From the NCBI GenBank assembly GCA_028375605.1, contig JAONGR010000010.1, forward strand, positions 1 through 47,550: 47,550 nucleotides of DNA, in the 5' to 3' direction. Source of the stretch: Arcobacteraceae bacterium (lineage in GTDB: Bacteria > Campylobacterota > Campylobacteria > Campylobacterales > Arcobacteraceae). Of this stretch, positions 40,467-47,377 are shown piece by piece. A model generated the notes under the pieces. That model was not told where the DNA came from. It worked only from the letters and a program-made list of their open reading frames with translations, and ran no database searches. Position 1 is the stretch's first letter. Each line of letters begins with the position of its first letter. The position numbers and the translations under genes are program-made.

Positions 40467-41438
40467 CTAAAAACTAAATAGACCTTTTTCATATAGAGTA
40501 AAAAGATAAGGTCTTATAATTTTAGGAATTTTATTTATTCTACATTTATTCTTAAATTTTTTTTCCATTCCGTTATCTAAAAAAGGTGCCATATAAATTT
40601 TATTTTCTTGGATTGAAATAGCAATAAGATGAGAAACGACTAATTCTTTTTTTTCTGATATTTCAACTCTTGTCTTATGTGAAATAATAATACCGCGTTT
40701 TTTCAACTCTTTATCAATCAAACGTATAGCAATATTAATATCACCATTAAAAGTAAAAGTTGTTAAATTATCCACTTTATCTTCAACAACTCCATCAAAT
40801 AATGAACAATTATCCAGTTCCAAATATTTAAAGCTTTTAGAAATTCCATCTTGAAAATTATCAAGTAATTCATCTGTAAAATTATGCCGAAAATAATTTC
40901 GTTTGTATTTCTCGTCATAATTTGATTCATCGATAAAATATTTCTTAGTTGTCTGATCTAGATATGCTTTCAAGTCATTTTTACTATAATCTAGTAAAGG
41001 TTTAAGAATATAATATCCATTTTTATATGTACTTTTTTGCATTCCTAATAACTCACTTAACCCTGCACCTTTTGTAAACTGCATTAAGAACCATTCTAGA
41101 TTATCATTTAATTGATGTGCCGTTAATAAAGAACCATAACTGTTCTCTTTCATTATCTCATCAAAAAAAGAATACCGATAATCTCGAGCATTTTTTTCAC
41201 TGAAGGCTAACTCTTTAGGGTATTCAGATATAAAACATCTCTTCTGGTACTTATGTGCTAGTTGCGTTGCATAGATAACTTCATCTTTTGATTGTGTTCT
41301 TTGATTGTAATCTACAATGGCTATATCAAAAGATATATCATTGTCTATAAGTAAAAAAAACAATGCGGTAGAATCAATTCCTGCACTAAATGCTAATAGA
41401 TTTTTTGTACTAGTTATCTCTAATTTAATATCATTCAT
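40467..41438 (-). CDS. tilS: tRNA(Ile)-lysidine synthase
   Basis: A 323-residue PP-loop ATPase. LLAFSAGIDSTALFFLL (residues 14-30) is the PP-loop, with Ala in place of the first Gly of SGG. TAHQLNDNLEWFLMQFTKGAGL and NYFRHNF are TilS motifs. It converts C34 of the AUA-reading tRNA(Ile) to lysidine and is essential. It converges on the preceding gene with a 6-bp gap. The Ala variant is probably normal for this lineage and not a sign of decay. Confidence 0.93.
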   Translation of the reverse strand: MNDIKLEITSTKNLLAFSAGIDSTALFFLLIDNDISFDIAIVDYNQRTQSKDEVIYATQLAHKYQKRCFISEYPKELAFSEKNARDYRYSFFDEIMKENSYGSLLTAHQLNDNLEWFLMQFTKGAGLSELLGMQKSTYKNGYYILKPLLDYSKNDLKAYLDQTTKKYFIDESNYDEKYKRNYFRHNFTDELLDNFQDGISKSFKYLELDNCSLFDGVVEDKVDNLTTFTFNGDINIAIRLIDKELKKRGIIISHKTRVEISEKKELVVSHLIAISIQENKIYMAPFLDNGMEKKFKNKCRINKIPKIIRPYLFTLYEKGLFSF

Positions 41439-41530
41439 CTGCTGATTATAATCAGAATAAAGTTATATAATACTTAGTATTAGCTCTAAATCAATTTACA
41501 TTACTTTATTTTATGCTAATAATAAGCGTT

Positions 41531-43555: not shown

Positions 43556-44304
43556 AACACATCTCTACAAAAGATGGTTCAAATACTCTCTTTAGTACAC
43601 AGTTTAATCAACATTATCATAGTACTAAAGAGGGTGCACTAAATGAATCTCTATCAAAACATGTGATTCCTGCTTTTGAATATCATCATGATAAAAAAGA
43701 ACTCAATATTTTGGATATCTGTTTTGGATTGGGATATAACACTTTAGCAACATTATATTATATAAAAAAAAATCATTTAGATATTAAAGTTAATATTTTT
43801 TCACCAGAATTCGATGAAGAGCTGCTTTCATCACTTATAAACTTCAATTATCCCGAAGAATTTACAATTTTTAGTCATATAATCCAAAGCTTATCAAATA
43901 CAAAAAAATATAAAGATAAAAATATTACAATCGAGATTTTCAATGGAGATGCAAGAGAGTATATTCGTACTATTTATAATCTTAATAAAATAAAATTTGA
44001 TATCGTATACCAAGATGCATTTAGCAGTGAGGTAAACCATCTGTTATGGACAGTTGAATATTTCAAAGAGATTTCTAATATCCTGTCTTCTGATGCAATT
44101 CTAACAACATATTCTATAGCTACACCAATAAGACTATCTATTTATCAAAATAGCTTTACCATTTATGAATATAAACCTTTAAATTCCAATCGAATTACAA
44201 TTGCTTTAAATAAAAAAGTCTTAGATTCAAATTTTAAACATATTGATATGGAACTCAAAAAAGAAAGAAATAAAACTGCAAATGCATTATTTGATCGAGA
44301 TTGA
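43552..44304 (+). CDS. mnmD: MnmD-type tRNA U34 methyltransferase, start codon unclear
   Basis: [19 protein letters not shown] is the SAM-binding loop, and [19 protein letters not shown] is the catalytic-loop signature of the MnmC methyltransferase domain. The oxidase domain is absent. The first ordinary start codon is GTG at 43663. However, the frame is open back to about 43510 and encodes the family's N-terminus ([22 protein letters not shown]), so translation should begin upstream. No ATG, GTG or TTG exists there. An ATA overlaps the luxS stop at 43552 and an ATT lies at 43543. It would finish mnm5s2U34 after MnmEG. It overlaps ftsI tail to tail by 18 bp. Confidence 0.8.
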
Positions 44305-46119
44305 CTCTTTGTCTAATTCTAAATAATTTAATTTTAATAAGATCTTAGTAATTTCCTTAAAAACAGGAACTGCTGAATGAGAAGCATAATAATAATACCA
44401 CTTTTTACCTCGATTAACAGGATCATTAACTGTTACCCCTATTGTATACCTTTTATTTTTATCATTTACAAAACCAAAAAAACTACTCATATATTTTCTT
44501 TGATATTTACCATTTTCAACTATATTTGCAGTTCCTGTTTTACCACCTATCTCCAGTCCCTCAATTAATGTCTTTTTACCGGTACCTTTTTCAACAGTTT
44601 TTACAAGAAGTTTTTTCATCTTGTTTGCCGTATTTTTAGAAATCACTTGTCTTGAGATAATATTGTTTTGACCATTATCAATTAGATAAGGAGTGACAAT
44701 TTTACCATCATTATTAAAAGCAGAATATGATTTTAAAACTTGCATAAATGTCGCAGTAATACCTTGTCCATAAGAATCGGTAGTTTTATATATATTATCC
44801 TCATTTTTATCTTCACCAGCTCTATACTGATACAATTTATGAATAATACCTTTAGCTTCATGAGGAAGATCGATTCCTGTTTTTTCAGACAATCCAAATC
44901 TCTTAAATCCATCATAAAACTCATTTGCAGTTAATCTATTTGCAATTACAAGAGTACCAATATTACTCGAAAAAATAACAACATCTTCTAAACTCAGATA
45001 ATTTTTTTTGAATCGATGATCATCATGTATAATGTGTCTATTTATTTTATACTTACCCTTTGGATATTCACCTTTTTTATTTGTTTTTCCTTTATTATAT
45101 GCATAAAATAATTCGTTATCTTTAACTTTATTATGATCCATCGCTAAAGAGATTGATAAAGGCTTTATAACTGAACCTGGTTCAAAATTATATTCAATAG
45201 CATTTATTCTTAAACTCTCAATATCTTTTTGTTCAATTTTTTGCGGATTATATCTATTTGTAGAAGCTAACGATAAAATCTTACCAGTGTTACTTTCCAT
45301 TACGGAAACAATAATCTCTTTTGCTTCAAATTCTTTTTTGTAACGATCAATCATTAACTCTATGTTTCTTTGTAATTTTAGAGGTACAGTCAAGCGAAGA
45401 TCTTCTCCATCATGTCGTTTTATTATTTTAGAATTTTTATTAAACAAGATATACGATAATATATCTTTGTTCCCTTTTAATATACCATCTTGTACATTAT
45501 TTAAATTCTTATTAAATTCCTTTTCAAGACCGTTAACACCCAAGACTTTTTGTTTTCCGCTATCATTATTATTCTTTTTAACAAAACCAATTACAGGAGT
45601 TAATGTATCTTTATATGGATATAATCGTTCTTCACCTGTTTCATATATATTTAAACCATATAAAACTCTTCTTCCATTTAATTTAATAGACTTAAAGACA
45701 TCTAACCTTCTTAGTTTAAATGCCAACGATTTTAATTCTTTTGCTACTCTCTGATTAATAGTTCTTGAGATAATGGTATAACCATTTTTAGAAATTTTAT
45801 CAAGTATTTTATCTTTTGGAATATTACTATATAAGGAAAATAATGTAACAAAAAGATCTTTTTTATTTTCATCCAAACATCGAGTATCTATTGAGGCAGA
45901 ATAAATTTTTTGAGAAGTACCTATTTTAAAATTATCTGCACTAAAAATATTACCTCGTACAGCCAAATCTTTTTTAGTGGTATTTAAAGAGGGTAATTTT
46001 CTCTCATTTTGTGAAGATTTTGACATAGAGAAAAGTAAAATTAAAAAAGCTATTAAAATCAAAGCTATTAAAACTAAAATCTTTTTCATTATTAATAATT
46101 GTTGTATATTTAAAGGCAT
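44287..46119 (-). CDS. ftsI: Septal class B penicillin-binding protein (peptidoglycan transpeptidase)
   Basis: A 610-residue bitopic protein with one N-terminal anchor (LVLIALILIAFLILLF), a dimerisation/pedestal domain and a transpeptidase domain. SVIK (Ser316 nucleophile, Lys319), SSN (384-386) and KTGT (527-530) are the three active-site motifs. It is called FtsI rather than MrdA because of its divergent ftsW-like neighbour. It cross-links septal peptidoglycan. An internal ATG at 46089 (MKKILVLIALIL) would give a more typical short cytoplasmic tail; neither start has a good ribosome site. Confidence 0.9.
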   Translation of the reverse strand: MPLNIQQLLIMKKILVLIALILIAFLILLFSMSKSSQNERKLPSLNTTKKDLAVRGNIFSADNFKIGTSQKIYSASIDTRCLDENKKDLFVTLFSLYSNIPKDKILDKISKNGYTIISRTINQRVAKELKSLAFKLRRLDVFKSIKLNGRRVLYGLNIYETGEERLYPYKDTLTPVIGFVKKNNNDSGKQKVLGVNGLEKEFNKNLNNVQDGILKGNKDILSYILFNKNSKIIKRHDGEDLRLTVPLKLQRNIELMIDRYKKEFEAKEIIVSVMESNTGKILSLASTNRYNPQKIEQKDIESLRINAIEYNFEPGSVIKPLSISLAMDHNKVKDNELFYAYNKGKTNKKGEYPKGKYKINRHIIHDDHRFKKNYLSLEDVVIFSSNIGTLVIANRLTANEFYDGFKRFGLSEKTGIDLPHEAKGIIHKLYQYRAGEDKNEDNIYKTTDSYGQGITATFMQVLKSYSAFNNDGKIVTPYLIDNGQNNIISRQVISKNTANKMKKLLVKTVEKGTGKKTLIEGLEIGGKTGTANIVENGKYQRKYMSSFFGFVNDKNKRYTIGVTVNDPVNRGKKWYYYYASHSAVPVFKEITKILLKLNYLELDKESISIK

Positions 46120-46144
46120 TTTTTATCCACATTTCCAAAAAGTT

Positions 46145-46160
46145 TGCTATAATCCAAAAA
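46145..46160 (+). promoter_or_regulatory. ftsW promoter, leaderless arrangement
   Basis: TTGCTATAAT (46144-46153) is a near-ideal extended -10 and ends only 6 bp before the ftsW ATG at 46160. The transcript should start at or within a base or two of the ATG. There is no ribosome site in the CCAAAA between them. Confidence 0.6.
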
Positions 46161-47377
46161 TGAATTTTATCCAAAAAAAGTTTAAATCCCTTACTGATGA
46201 TAATCAACCTGATTATATCTTATTTTATTTAAGTGCTATACTTATAATAGTTAGTATACTTTTTTCTTATTCATTATCTATTTATACAGTATTATACTGG
46301 GATTATAATCCTTTTCACTTCTTTTTTAGACAATTATTTACTGGACTTTTAGCAATACTCATTATGTGGTCATTAGCGCAAATAAAGCCTGATATTTTAT
46401 TGCCTAAAGTGGGATGGTTTCTTTTTCTTTTTTTCTTATTTTTAATTGTTATTATGCAATTTTTACCTTCATTTATGGTTACAGAATCAGGGGGAGCAAA
46501 AAGATGGATTAGATTACCAGGGATATCATTATCACCCGTGGAATTTTTTAAAATTGGATTTATATATTATCTATCGTGGTCTTTTCACAGAAAGTTAACT
46601 GATATAGCCAAACAATCATTTGCAAATGAGTTAAAGCTATTAGCACCATATGCTATCTTTTTTGGTTTTGTAGTATTTATGATTGCAGTACTCCAAAAAG
46701 ACTTAGGACAAGTAGTTCTTTTAGCGACAATTCTATTTATCATGCTTATCTTTGCTAATAGAAGTTGGAAAGTATTTGCATCACTTATTGCCGTTGCTAT
46801 TATAGGTCTAATGGCATTAATTTTATATTTTCCACATAGAATAATAAGAATAAAAAGCTGGTGGAGTATGATACAAGATAGTGTCCTATCAATTATGCCA
46901 GACTTTGTATCTACTGCATTGCGTATAAAAGAATTTCCTGAACCATATCAAGTTGGTCATTCATTAAATGCTATTAATAATGGTGGGTTAACTGGAGTTG
47001 GTTTAGGAAATGGTTCACTAAAACTTGGTTTTCTTAGTGAAGTGCACACAGATTTTGTTTTAGCTGGAATTAGTGAGGAAATCGGTTTTATCGGTCTTTT
47101 TTTCATTGTCTTAATTTTATTTGGTATTATCATTAGAATTTTTCGAACCTCTCGAAGAATTAAAGATACAAAGTATCATCTATTTACCATAGGAATTGGA
47201 TTAATGATAAGTATTGCTTTTTTAATTAATTCATATGGAATATCAGGAATTATCCCTATTAAGGGTATTGCTGTTCCCTTTTTAAGTTATGGTGGAAGTT
47301 CTTTATTAAGCGTATCAATTGCTATTGGGCTTGTACTCTCAATAAGCCGAGATATTAATAAAAAAAGTAAGAGCTAA
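46160..47377 (+). CDS. ftsW: SEDS-family peptidoglycan glycosyltransferase, FtsW type
   Basis: A 405-residue protein with about ten membrane helices. SGGAKRWIRLPGISLSPVEF is the SEDS signature, followed by LQKDLGQ with the catalytic Asp loop and SEVHTDFVLAGISEEIGFIG, typical of FtsW. It ends with AVPFLSYGGSSLL. It polymerises glycan strands at the septum with FtsI. The start at 46160 is chosen over earlier in-frame ATGs because those lie within ftsI and encode no family sequence. RodA is the alternative; the ftsI neighbour favours FtsW. Confidence 0.88.
   Translation: MNFIQKKFKSLTDDNQPDYILFYLSAILIIVSILFSYSLSIYTVLYWDYNPFHFFFRQLFTGLLAILIMWSLAQIKPDILLPKVGWFLFLFFLFLIVIMQFLPSFMVTESGGAKRWIRLPGISLSPVEFFKIGFIYYLSWSFHRKLTDIAKQSFANELKLLAPYAIFFGFVVFMIAVLQKDLGQVVLLATILFIMLIFANRSWKVFASLIAVAIIGLMALILYFPHRIIRIKSWWSMIQDSVLSIMPDFVSTALRIKEFPEPYQVGHSLNAINNGGLTGVGLGNGSLKLGFLSEVHTDFVLAGISEEIGFIGLFFIVLILFGIIIRIFRTSRRIKDTKYHLFTIGIGLMISIAFLINSYGISGIIPIKGIAVPFLSYGGSSLLSVSIAIGLVLSISRDINKKSKS

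Follow-up and report, generated by a model that had tools for sequence, protein, structure and literature searches.

How would a gene be transcribed and translated when its −10 promoter element ends only six nucleotides (nt) before its start codon, and where would its divergent neighbor then keep a promoter of its own? Both questions are raised by ftsW and ftsI, the two divergent cell-wall genes that form the end of the window, that is, of the whole 47,550-nt stretch of DNA analyzed here (Arcobacteraceae bacterium, assembly GCA_028375605.1, contig JAONGR010000010.1, positions 1–47,550 of the forward strand; the source genome is a draft, 61.9% complete, in 122 contigs). Comparison of the locus within the family indicates that the ftsW mRNA is very likely leaderless. 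It is also quite likely that the ftsI promoter is embedded in codons 2–4 of ftsW, and the joint model with both features is likely. The features on which the first part of this argument rests are as follows.

46145–46153, plus strand: extended −10 element of ftsW, TGCTATAAT, with the hexamer TATAAT at 46148–46153 (position kept in 84 of 100 family loci)
46160, plus strand: predicted ftsW start site at the A of the ATG, giving a leaderless mRNA, from the 6-nt spacing
46160–47377, plus strand: ftsW-like gene, 405 amino acids (TIGR02614 ftsW, 301.9 bits)
46120–46159, no strand: divergent intergenic region, 40 bp (in the family, 66 of 84 loci have 28–30 bp)
44287–46119, minus strand: ftsI-like class B penicillin-binding protein gene, 610 amino acids (SpoVD/PBP2-type models)

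The ftsW start codon and its −10 element

A preliminary description of this locus had reported an almost perfect extended −10 element 6 bp before the ATG. Its location and spacing were correct and the element is actually perfect: TGCTATAAT (46145–46153) is followed by CCAAAA (46154–46159) and then by the ATG (46160–46162). This ATG is the sole in-frame ATG, GTG or TTG in codons 1–68 of ftsW, the next one being codon 69. Upstream and in frame there is one GTG, 61 codons away inside the antisense ftsI, and the first stop codon lies at codon −83. No Shine–Dalgarno (SD) match of at least four bases was found 3–11 nt before the window ftsW ATG. The spacing fits the published rule gnTAnaAT-N5-9-ATG (PMC3847290), and the sequence features expected of a leaderless gene (a −10 element 5–9 nt before the start codon, an ATG and no SD sequence) are present. 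Transcription from TGCTATAAT would begin at the A of the ATG, and the 5′ AUG of the resulting leaderless mRNA would be translated without an SD sequence.

Counting the motif was in itself uninformative. In the source genome TATAAT-N6-ATG has 56 matches compared with 61 in a reversed-pattern control, and TGNTATAAT-N6-ATG has 3 compared with 1. Thirty of the 56 matches were inspected as loci, and these enter none of the counts given here. A consensus scan of the surrounding kilobase gave 7 promoter-like matches against a shuffle mean of 7.5, that is, no excess. Thus, the motif alone proves nothing, and the real evidence is its conservation in orthologs.

We therefore examined 100 family ftsW loci from 98 genomes (two each in G108 and G111). 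An ftsW homolog at an E-value of 1e-60 was present in 99 of 104 family genomes and missing from five, and a pseudogene-like match in G128 was left out; among the 80 genomes searched first, the source genome included, all had a match to the FtsW/RodA family, which was only a distant one in G018. The start of each gene was taken as the most upstream in-frame ATG, chosen blind to the −10 element, and such an ATG was found in 93 of the 100 loci. Exactly five or six nt before the chosen ATG, 84 of 100 loci had a hexamer with at least five of six consensus positions (N5 in 66, N6 in 18), a perfect TATAAT in 74 of these, whereas dinucleotide shuffles of the upstream DNA gave 8.8% and 1.2%, respectively. 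This arrangement spans 16 of the 19 genera that have an ftsW locus. When spacings from N4 to N10 were scanned, none of the 84 loci had such a hexamer at a spacing other than N5 or N6, so that the comparison of orthologs which the preliminary description had proposed came out in favor of a conserved spacing. None of the 84 had an SD match of at least four bases at 3–11 nt (an ATG being required by the start rule). With this near-fixed spacing and the lack of SD sequences, leaderless ftsW, as first suggested in that description, is by far the best reading.

An in-frame stop codon precedes the ATG within nine codons in 78 of the 84 loci and within three codons in 65, often inside the −10 element itself, so the ftsW start codon is hardly in doubt. 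Seven of the ten imperfect hexamers carry a TGn extension, compared with 2 of the 74 perfect ones; the seven come from three genera, suggesting that an extended TGn usually compensates for an imperfect hexamer at ftsW.

The outgroup loci L076, L083 and L089, which are divergent and belong to other families, have no −10 hexamer of at least five of six positions beside the ATG, and the compact leaderless form may have been derived within this family. Sixteen loci of named relatives were also collected; only L002 (Nitratifractor, 43% identity) is clearly of the same phylum, and they were left out of further comparison.

A predicted reverse-strand promoter within the first ftsW codons

The preliminary description mentioned neither the divergent orientation of the two genes nor a putative ftsI promoter inside ftsW. 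Rather than preceding ftsW on the same strand, ftsI is on the minus strand and divergent, with its ATG at 46119 and 40 bp between both start codons. Its predicted promoter comprises the following elements.

46164–46171, minus strand: predicted extended −10 element of ftsI, GATAAAAT (gnTAnAAT), within ftsW codons 2–4 (kept in 80 of 84 loci)
46157, minus strand: predicted ftsI transcription start (about ±1 nt), 7 nt downstream of the hexamer ending at 46164; leader of about 38 nt
46126–46128, minus strand: GGA, a putative weak SD-like core, 6 nt before the ftsI ATG

The sequence gnTAnAAT is the −10 motif published for Campylobacter jejuni and Helicobacter pylori (PMC3847290). Inside ftsW the reverse hexamer occurs as TAAAAT, TAGAAT or TATAAT, which on the forward strand corresponds to ATTnTAnC over codons 2–4. 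The GGA site reads TGGATAAA in many relatives and AGGA in a few.

Codons 2–4 of ftsW have the form NAT TNT ANC: the encoded residues vary (N/Y/H/D, F/S/Y and I/N/S/T) and the third positions are stable. Genus-weighted information is 1.57–1.66 bits at the third positions of these codons, and at the second position it is 0.63 bits in codon 3 and 0.28 bits in codon 4; over the gene body, third positions average 0.46 bits and second positions 0.77 bits (rough, ungapped means). The last base of codon 4 is C in 94% of loci (genus-weighted), compared with 9–17% of the I/N/S/T codons elsewhere in the gene. Fixed third and variable second positions are the reverse of the usual pattern, and this would be expected if selection acts on the DNA and not on the protein.

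Two further comparisons point in the same direction. In seven loci the segment has ceased to encode part of FtsW; six of them retain the reverse element (G043, G017, G007, G038, G048 and G027) and G033 does not. The element is absent from all six loci without a detected divergent ftsI. Seven loci had originally lacked a detected divergent ftsI; G043, whose contig ends early in the neighbor gene, was counted as divergent by hand, and among the remaining six the second G111 and G108 copies have only about 740 and 265 nt of upstream sequence. Counted in any position within 115 nt, the reverse motif was present at 91 of 94 divergent loci, 80 of 84 being the stricter figure for codons 2–4. The g2 loci (labels such as f1 and g1 denote computed family and genus groups), with intergenic regions of 62–81 bp, have no reverse motif in codons 2–4 and carry gnTATAAT in the intergenic region instead (four of four). 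The composite of both elements has one match in the source genome and none in the control; in its N5 form it has 84 matches in the 104 family genomes, 68 of them at ftsW by our count and 16 elsewhere, compared with 17 in the control.

The two hexamers, at 46148–46153 (plus) and 46164–46169 (minus), are distinct and lie 10 bp apart in the window and 9–10 bp apart in 80 loci. The gap between the two ATGs is 28–30 bp in 66 of the 84 loci, 40–84 bp in 12 (window included), and 18 bp in six g11 loci by the start rule. The sequences themselves show the two elements, how little their spacing varies, that they are conserved and that the constraint on codon positions is reversed. From these observations the starts of ftsW and ftsI are predicted to lie about 3 bp from each other, flanked by −10 elements that point inward. 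Transcription of ftsI would be driven by the reverse gnTAnAAT in ftsW codons 2–4; with both starts enclosed by the pair of −10 elements, an RNA polymerase bound at one would block its counterpart, and the first residues of FtsW would be largely set by the ftsI promoter. We infer the exclusion of polymerases from polymerase size and from the argument made for bidirectional promoters (PMC12825309). The same study found that competition is negligible when the promoters it tested run at their low basal level, and mutual exclusion therefore need not matter in practice.

Two variants of this model were considered and set aside. One was that ftsI is leaderless too, from a −10 element at N8, of which a hexamer of at least five of six positions exists in part of the loci and is absent from the window. 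The other, that ftsW is leaderless only through tight packing of the promoters, is weakened by the g2 (62–81 bp, four loci) and g20 (84 bp, one locus) groups, which are still leaderless-like.

Alternative readings and exceptions

Even if ftsW is leaderless, ftsI might use the same −10 element in reverse. Such a shared symmetric −10, with starts 18–22 bp apart, would leave codons 2–4 of ftsW conserved through protein or AT-content constraint. In several genera the ftsW −10 sits in the palindrome ATTATATAAT, and TATAAT can then be read on the other strand as well, 13 nt away from the ftsI ATG. This would agree with a shared element, as would the conservation of the neighboring codons 5, 8 and 9 and the common occurrence in bacteria of promoters of this kind spaced by 18 bp (PMC12825309, PMC10268837). 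In the window, however, the reverse reading of the ftsW −10 is poor (GATTAT, 46149–46154, four of six positions); if ftsI used it, the starts would be 18 bp apart instead of the roughly 3 bp predicted from the conserved elements. The palindrome also varies among genera, whereas gnTAnAAT occupies codons 2–4 in 80 of 84 loci, and neither the near-fixed third and variable second codon positions nor the persistence of the element in noncoding segments would be expected from a shared −10, which makes this reading improbable. A transcript that begins 1–4 nt before the ATG, with a very short leader, is likewise improbable: the −10 element alone is compatible with such a start, but the N5 spacing of 66 of the 84 loci puts the 7-nt distance on or inside the ATG, and the purine preference at +1, reported for another species (PMC10268837), favors the A of the ATG.

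It could also be argued that the box is not the main ftsW promoter, that transcription comes from further upstream in ftsI with an SD-less leader, and that the box is conserved for ftsI or as low-melting DNA. The chance-level frequency of the motif in the source genome and the weak −35 element (see below) would fit this proposal. It is nevertheless very improbable, considering that the spacing is confined to N5–N6 despite the wider scan, that SD-like runs appear in several loci without the box and in none of the 84 with it at 3–11 nt, that the box and its distance from the ATG persist in g1, g2, g7 and g20, whose intergenic regions are 40–84 bp long, and that the seven TGn extensions of weak hexamers are all in these four groups.

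Several observations weigh against a leaderless ftsW combined with an embedded ftsI promoter. The −35 partner of the ftsW −10 is only a weak TCCACA with a 16-bp spacer, although weak −35 elements are usual in Campylobacterota. RNA folding gave no support for an open 5′ end at ftsW: the fold predicted for the first 60 nt of the mRNA is weak (−6.3 kcal/mol, z −1.5), with the U and G of the AUG paired. Additional promoters inside ftsI would be compatible with the −10 element as well. AGGA or AAGG occurs 0–2 nt before the ATG in 6 of the 84 loci, a distance too short for a usual SD sequence. Codons 5, 8 and 9 also have strongly conserved third positions (1.77–2.00 bits), which lie outside the proposed hexamer, on the reverse strand forming T-rich DNA just upstream of it, and the overlapping reverse TATAAT of several genera represents an alternative ftsI start. 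The loci are moreover not independent because of kinship among the genomes, which genus weighting corrects only partly. Finally, with the start chosen blind, the arrangement is missing from 16 of the 100 loci.

These exceptions are of several kinds. There is no detected divergent ftsI in G026, G037, G009, G010 and the second copies of G111 and G108, and several of G026, G037, G009 and the two second copies have SD-like runs. G038, G048 and G027 have a TTG start with AGGA, and in G043, G033, G017 and G007 the ftsW start has apparently shifted downstream. In G110 the rule picked an upstream ATG and the motif is actually present; in G096 there are Ns in the gene. The ftsW of G031 (L023), from the same family, has a GTG start, no −10 element at N5–6 and AAGGA upstream, which is what a requirement for ATG at leaderless starts would predict.

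In L034, L040 and L047 (g15), L051 (g5) and L059–L061 (g8), TATAAT is kept and the original ftsW ATG has been displaced or lost or runs into a stop codon; translation seemingly begins some tens of nt further downstream. These loci are apparent natural losses of the leaderless start, and since several lineages have replaced it, leaderless ftsW is not indispensable. In both genomes with two ftsW copies, G108 (L145/L194) and G111 (L162/L191), one copy is divergent and the other has no detected divergent ftsI; the second G108 copy is, by eye, close to L082 of another family and may be contamination.

Known systems, gene identities and other candidates

The preliminary description had called leaderless mRNAs a minority in Campylobacterota, which agrees with C. 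jejuni, where 19 of 471 5′ untranslated regions are shorter than 10 nt and 12 of the 19 start on the start codon (PMC3847290); leaderless genes are also a minority in H. pylori (PMC3847290; PMC11955535). The window ftsW resembles the leaderless mRNAs of these two species, in which a sigma70 gnTAnaAT −10 lies 5–9 nt before the ATG without an SD sequence (PMC3847290; PMC11955535). Leaderless status is poorly conserved between them (3 of 23 genes are common to both), and one gene is predicted to be leaderless in every species that has it (PMC3847290). The present pattern differs in that one gene, ftsW, is predicted to be leaderless over most of a family, which would make this division-enzyme gene a testable exception to the poor conservation between species in the phylum. 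The word ftsW is absent from the main texts of PMC3847290 and PMC11955535.

Bidirectional promoters (PMC12825309, PMC10268837) are similar in that divergent mRNAs arise from a short piece of DNA and the polymerases should exclude each other. Those promoters have one shared −10 and starts 7–25 bp apart, whereas here there are two −10 elements and a predicted distance of about 3 bp, with one −10 inside a coding sequence and one mRNA predicted to be leaderless. As far as its sequence tells, the window locus is not a bidirectional promoter in the sense of Warman and Grainger, with starts within or on either side of a shared −10. A noncanonical start-site arrangement is also known at ftsW of Caulobacter crescentus, where an internal transcript for a short form of 35 residues reflects another architecture (PMC4117421). 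In searches on Arcobacter differential RNA sequencing, leaderless ftsW, leaderless genes with overlapping divergent promoters and Arcobacter ftsI-ftsW, judged mainly on titles and the openings of abstracts and with subscription papers mostly outside their coverage, the present arrangement was not found; its ingredients are known.

FtsI and FtsW work as a pair at the septum. Somewhat speculatively, the interlocked promoters, each −10 lying in the transcribed region of the other gene with nearly coincident starts, might cause polymerases to share time at the locus and keep the FtsI:FtsW ratio steadier. If this is true, one polymerase would load at once, variation in the ratio would be damped, leaderless translation would let ftsW begin at its first transcribed base, and the conserved architecture would be distinct from that of shared −10 bidirectional promoters. 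Confirmation of the embedded ftsI promoter would provide a clear example of how a promoter can shape the protein encoded next to it, and a simple physical coupling of two divisome genes. Natural comparisons are offered by g5, g8 and g15, where the leaderless start is lost, and by g2, where the promoters are separated. A low, stress-sensitive level of ftsW relative to ftsI, which the preliminary description had envisaged, is unsupported: the leaderless start has been lost in several lineages, and translation of leaderless mRNAs in Caulobacter is about as good as that of mRNAs with a leader (PMC4117421).

As to gene identities, the ftsW-like protein scored 301.9 bits with TIGR02614 (ftsW), the best of six listed models, and 193.6 bits with TIGR02210 (rodA); the former score is 108 bits above rodA and lies below the curated TIGR02614 cut-off of 337.5. 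A second, distant FtsW/RodA-like protein is present in 74 of the 80 genomes searched and was not found in the source genome, which is incomplete. For the ftsI-like protein the best models were of the SpoVD/PBP2 type, every score being below the cut-off, and the name ftsI is given on family resemblance and neighborhood.

Beside ftsI, TTATCCACA at 46123–46131 (plus strand) is a perfect Escherichia coli-type DnaA box. The DnaA box consensus of A. butzleri is HTWTTCACW, and Epsilonproteobacteria have a TTCAC core with a strict T at position 5 (PMC5043019). With a C at position 5, TTATCCACA has the wrong core for this group and was rejected as a DnaA box; relatives mostly read TTATCCATA at its position, and the box is not kept in most of them.

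The tilS gene (TIGR02432) of the window also has TATAAT-N6-ATG (41436–41450, minus strand) and is likely leaderless by this signature. Thirty of the tilS matches were examined as loci; one was truncated by the end of its contig, so 29 remained, among them the window and two loci from other families. The signature was found in three of the 29 (the window, G003 of the same genus and, in weaker form, G013) and is absent from the other 26, suggesting that it was soon lost at tilS and retained at ftsW. In a sample of 332 open reading frames (ORFs) of at least 120 amino acids from the window and 340 kb of G014 and G003, TATAAT-N5..7-ATG occurred at a candidate start within the first 60 codons in eight (about 2%), seven of them at codon 1; ftsW itself was missed because its longest frame begins at the upstream GTG. 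This rate is in line with the small minority of leaderless genes in C. jejuni. At L097 (G000:C92), an extended −10 element lies six bases before the ATG of a nine-codon ORF, which is possibly a leaderless leader peptide.
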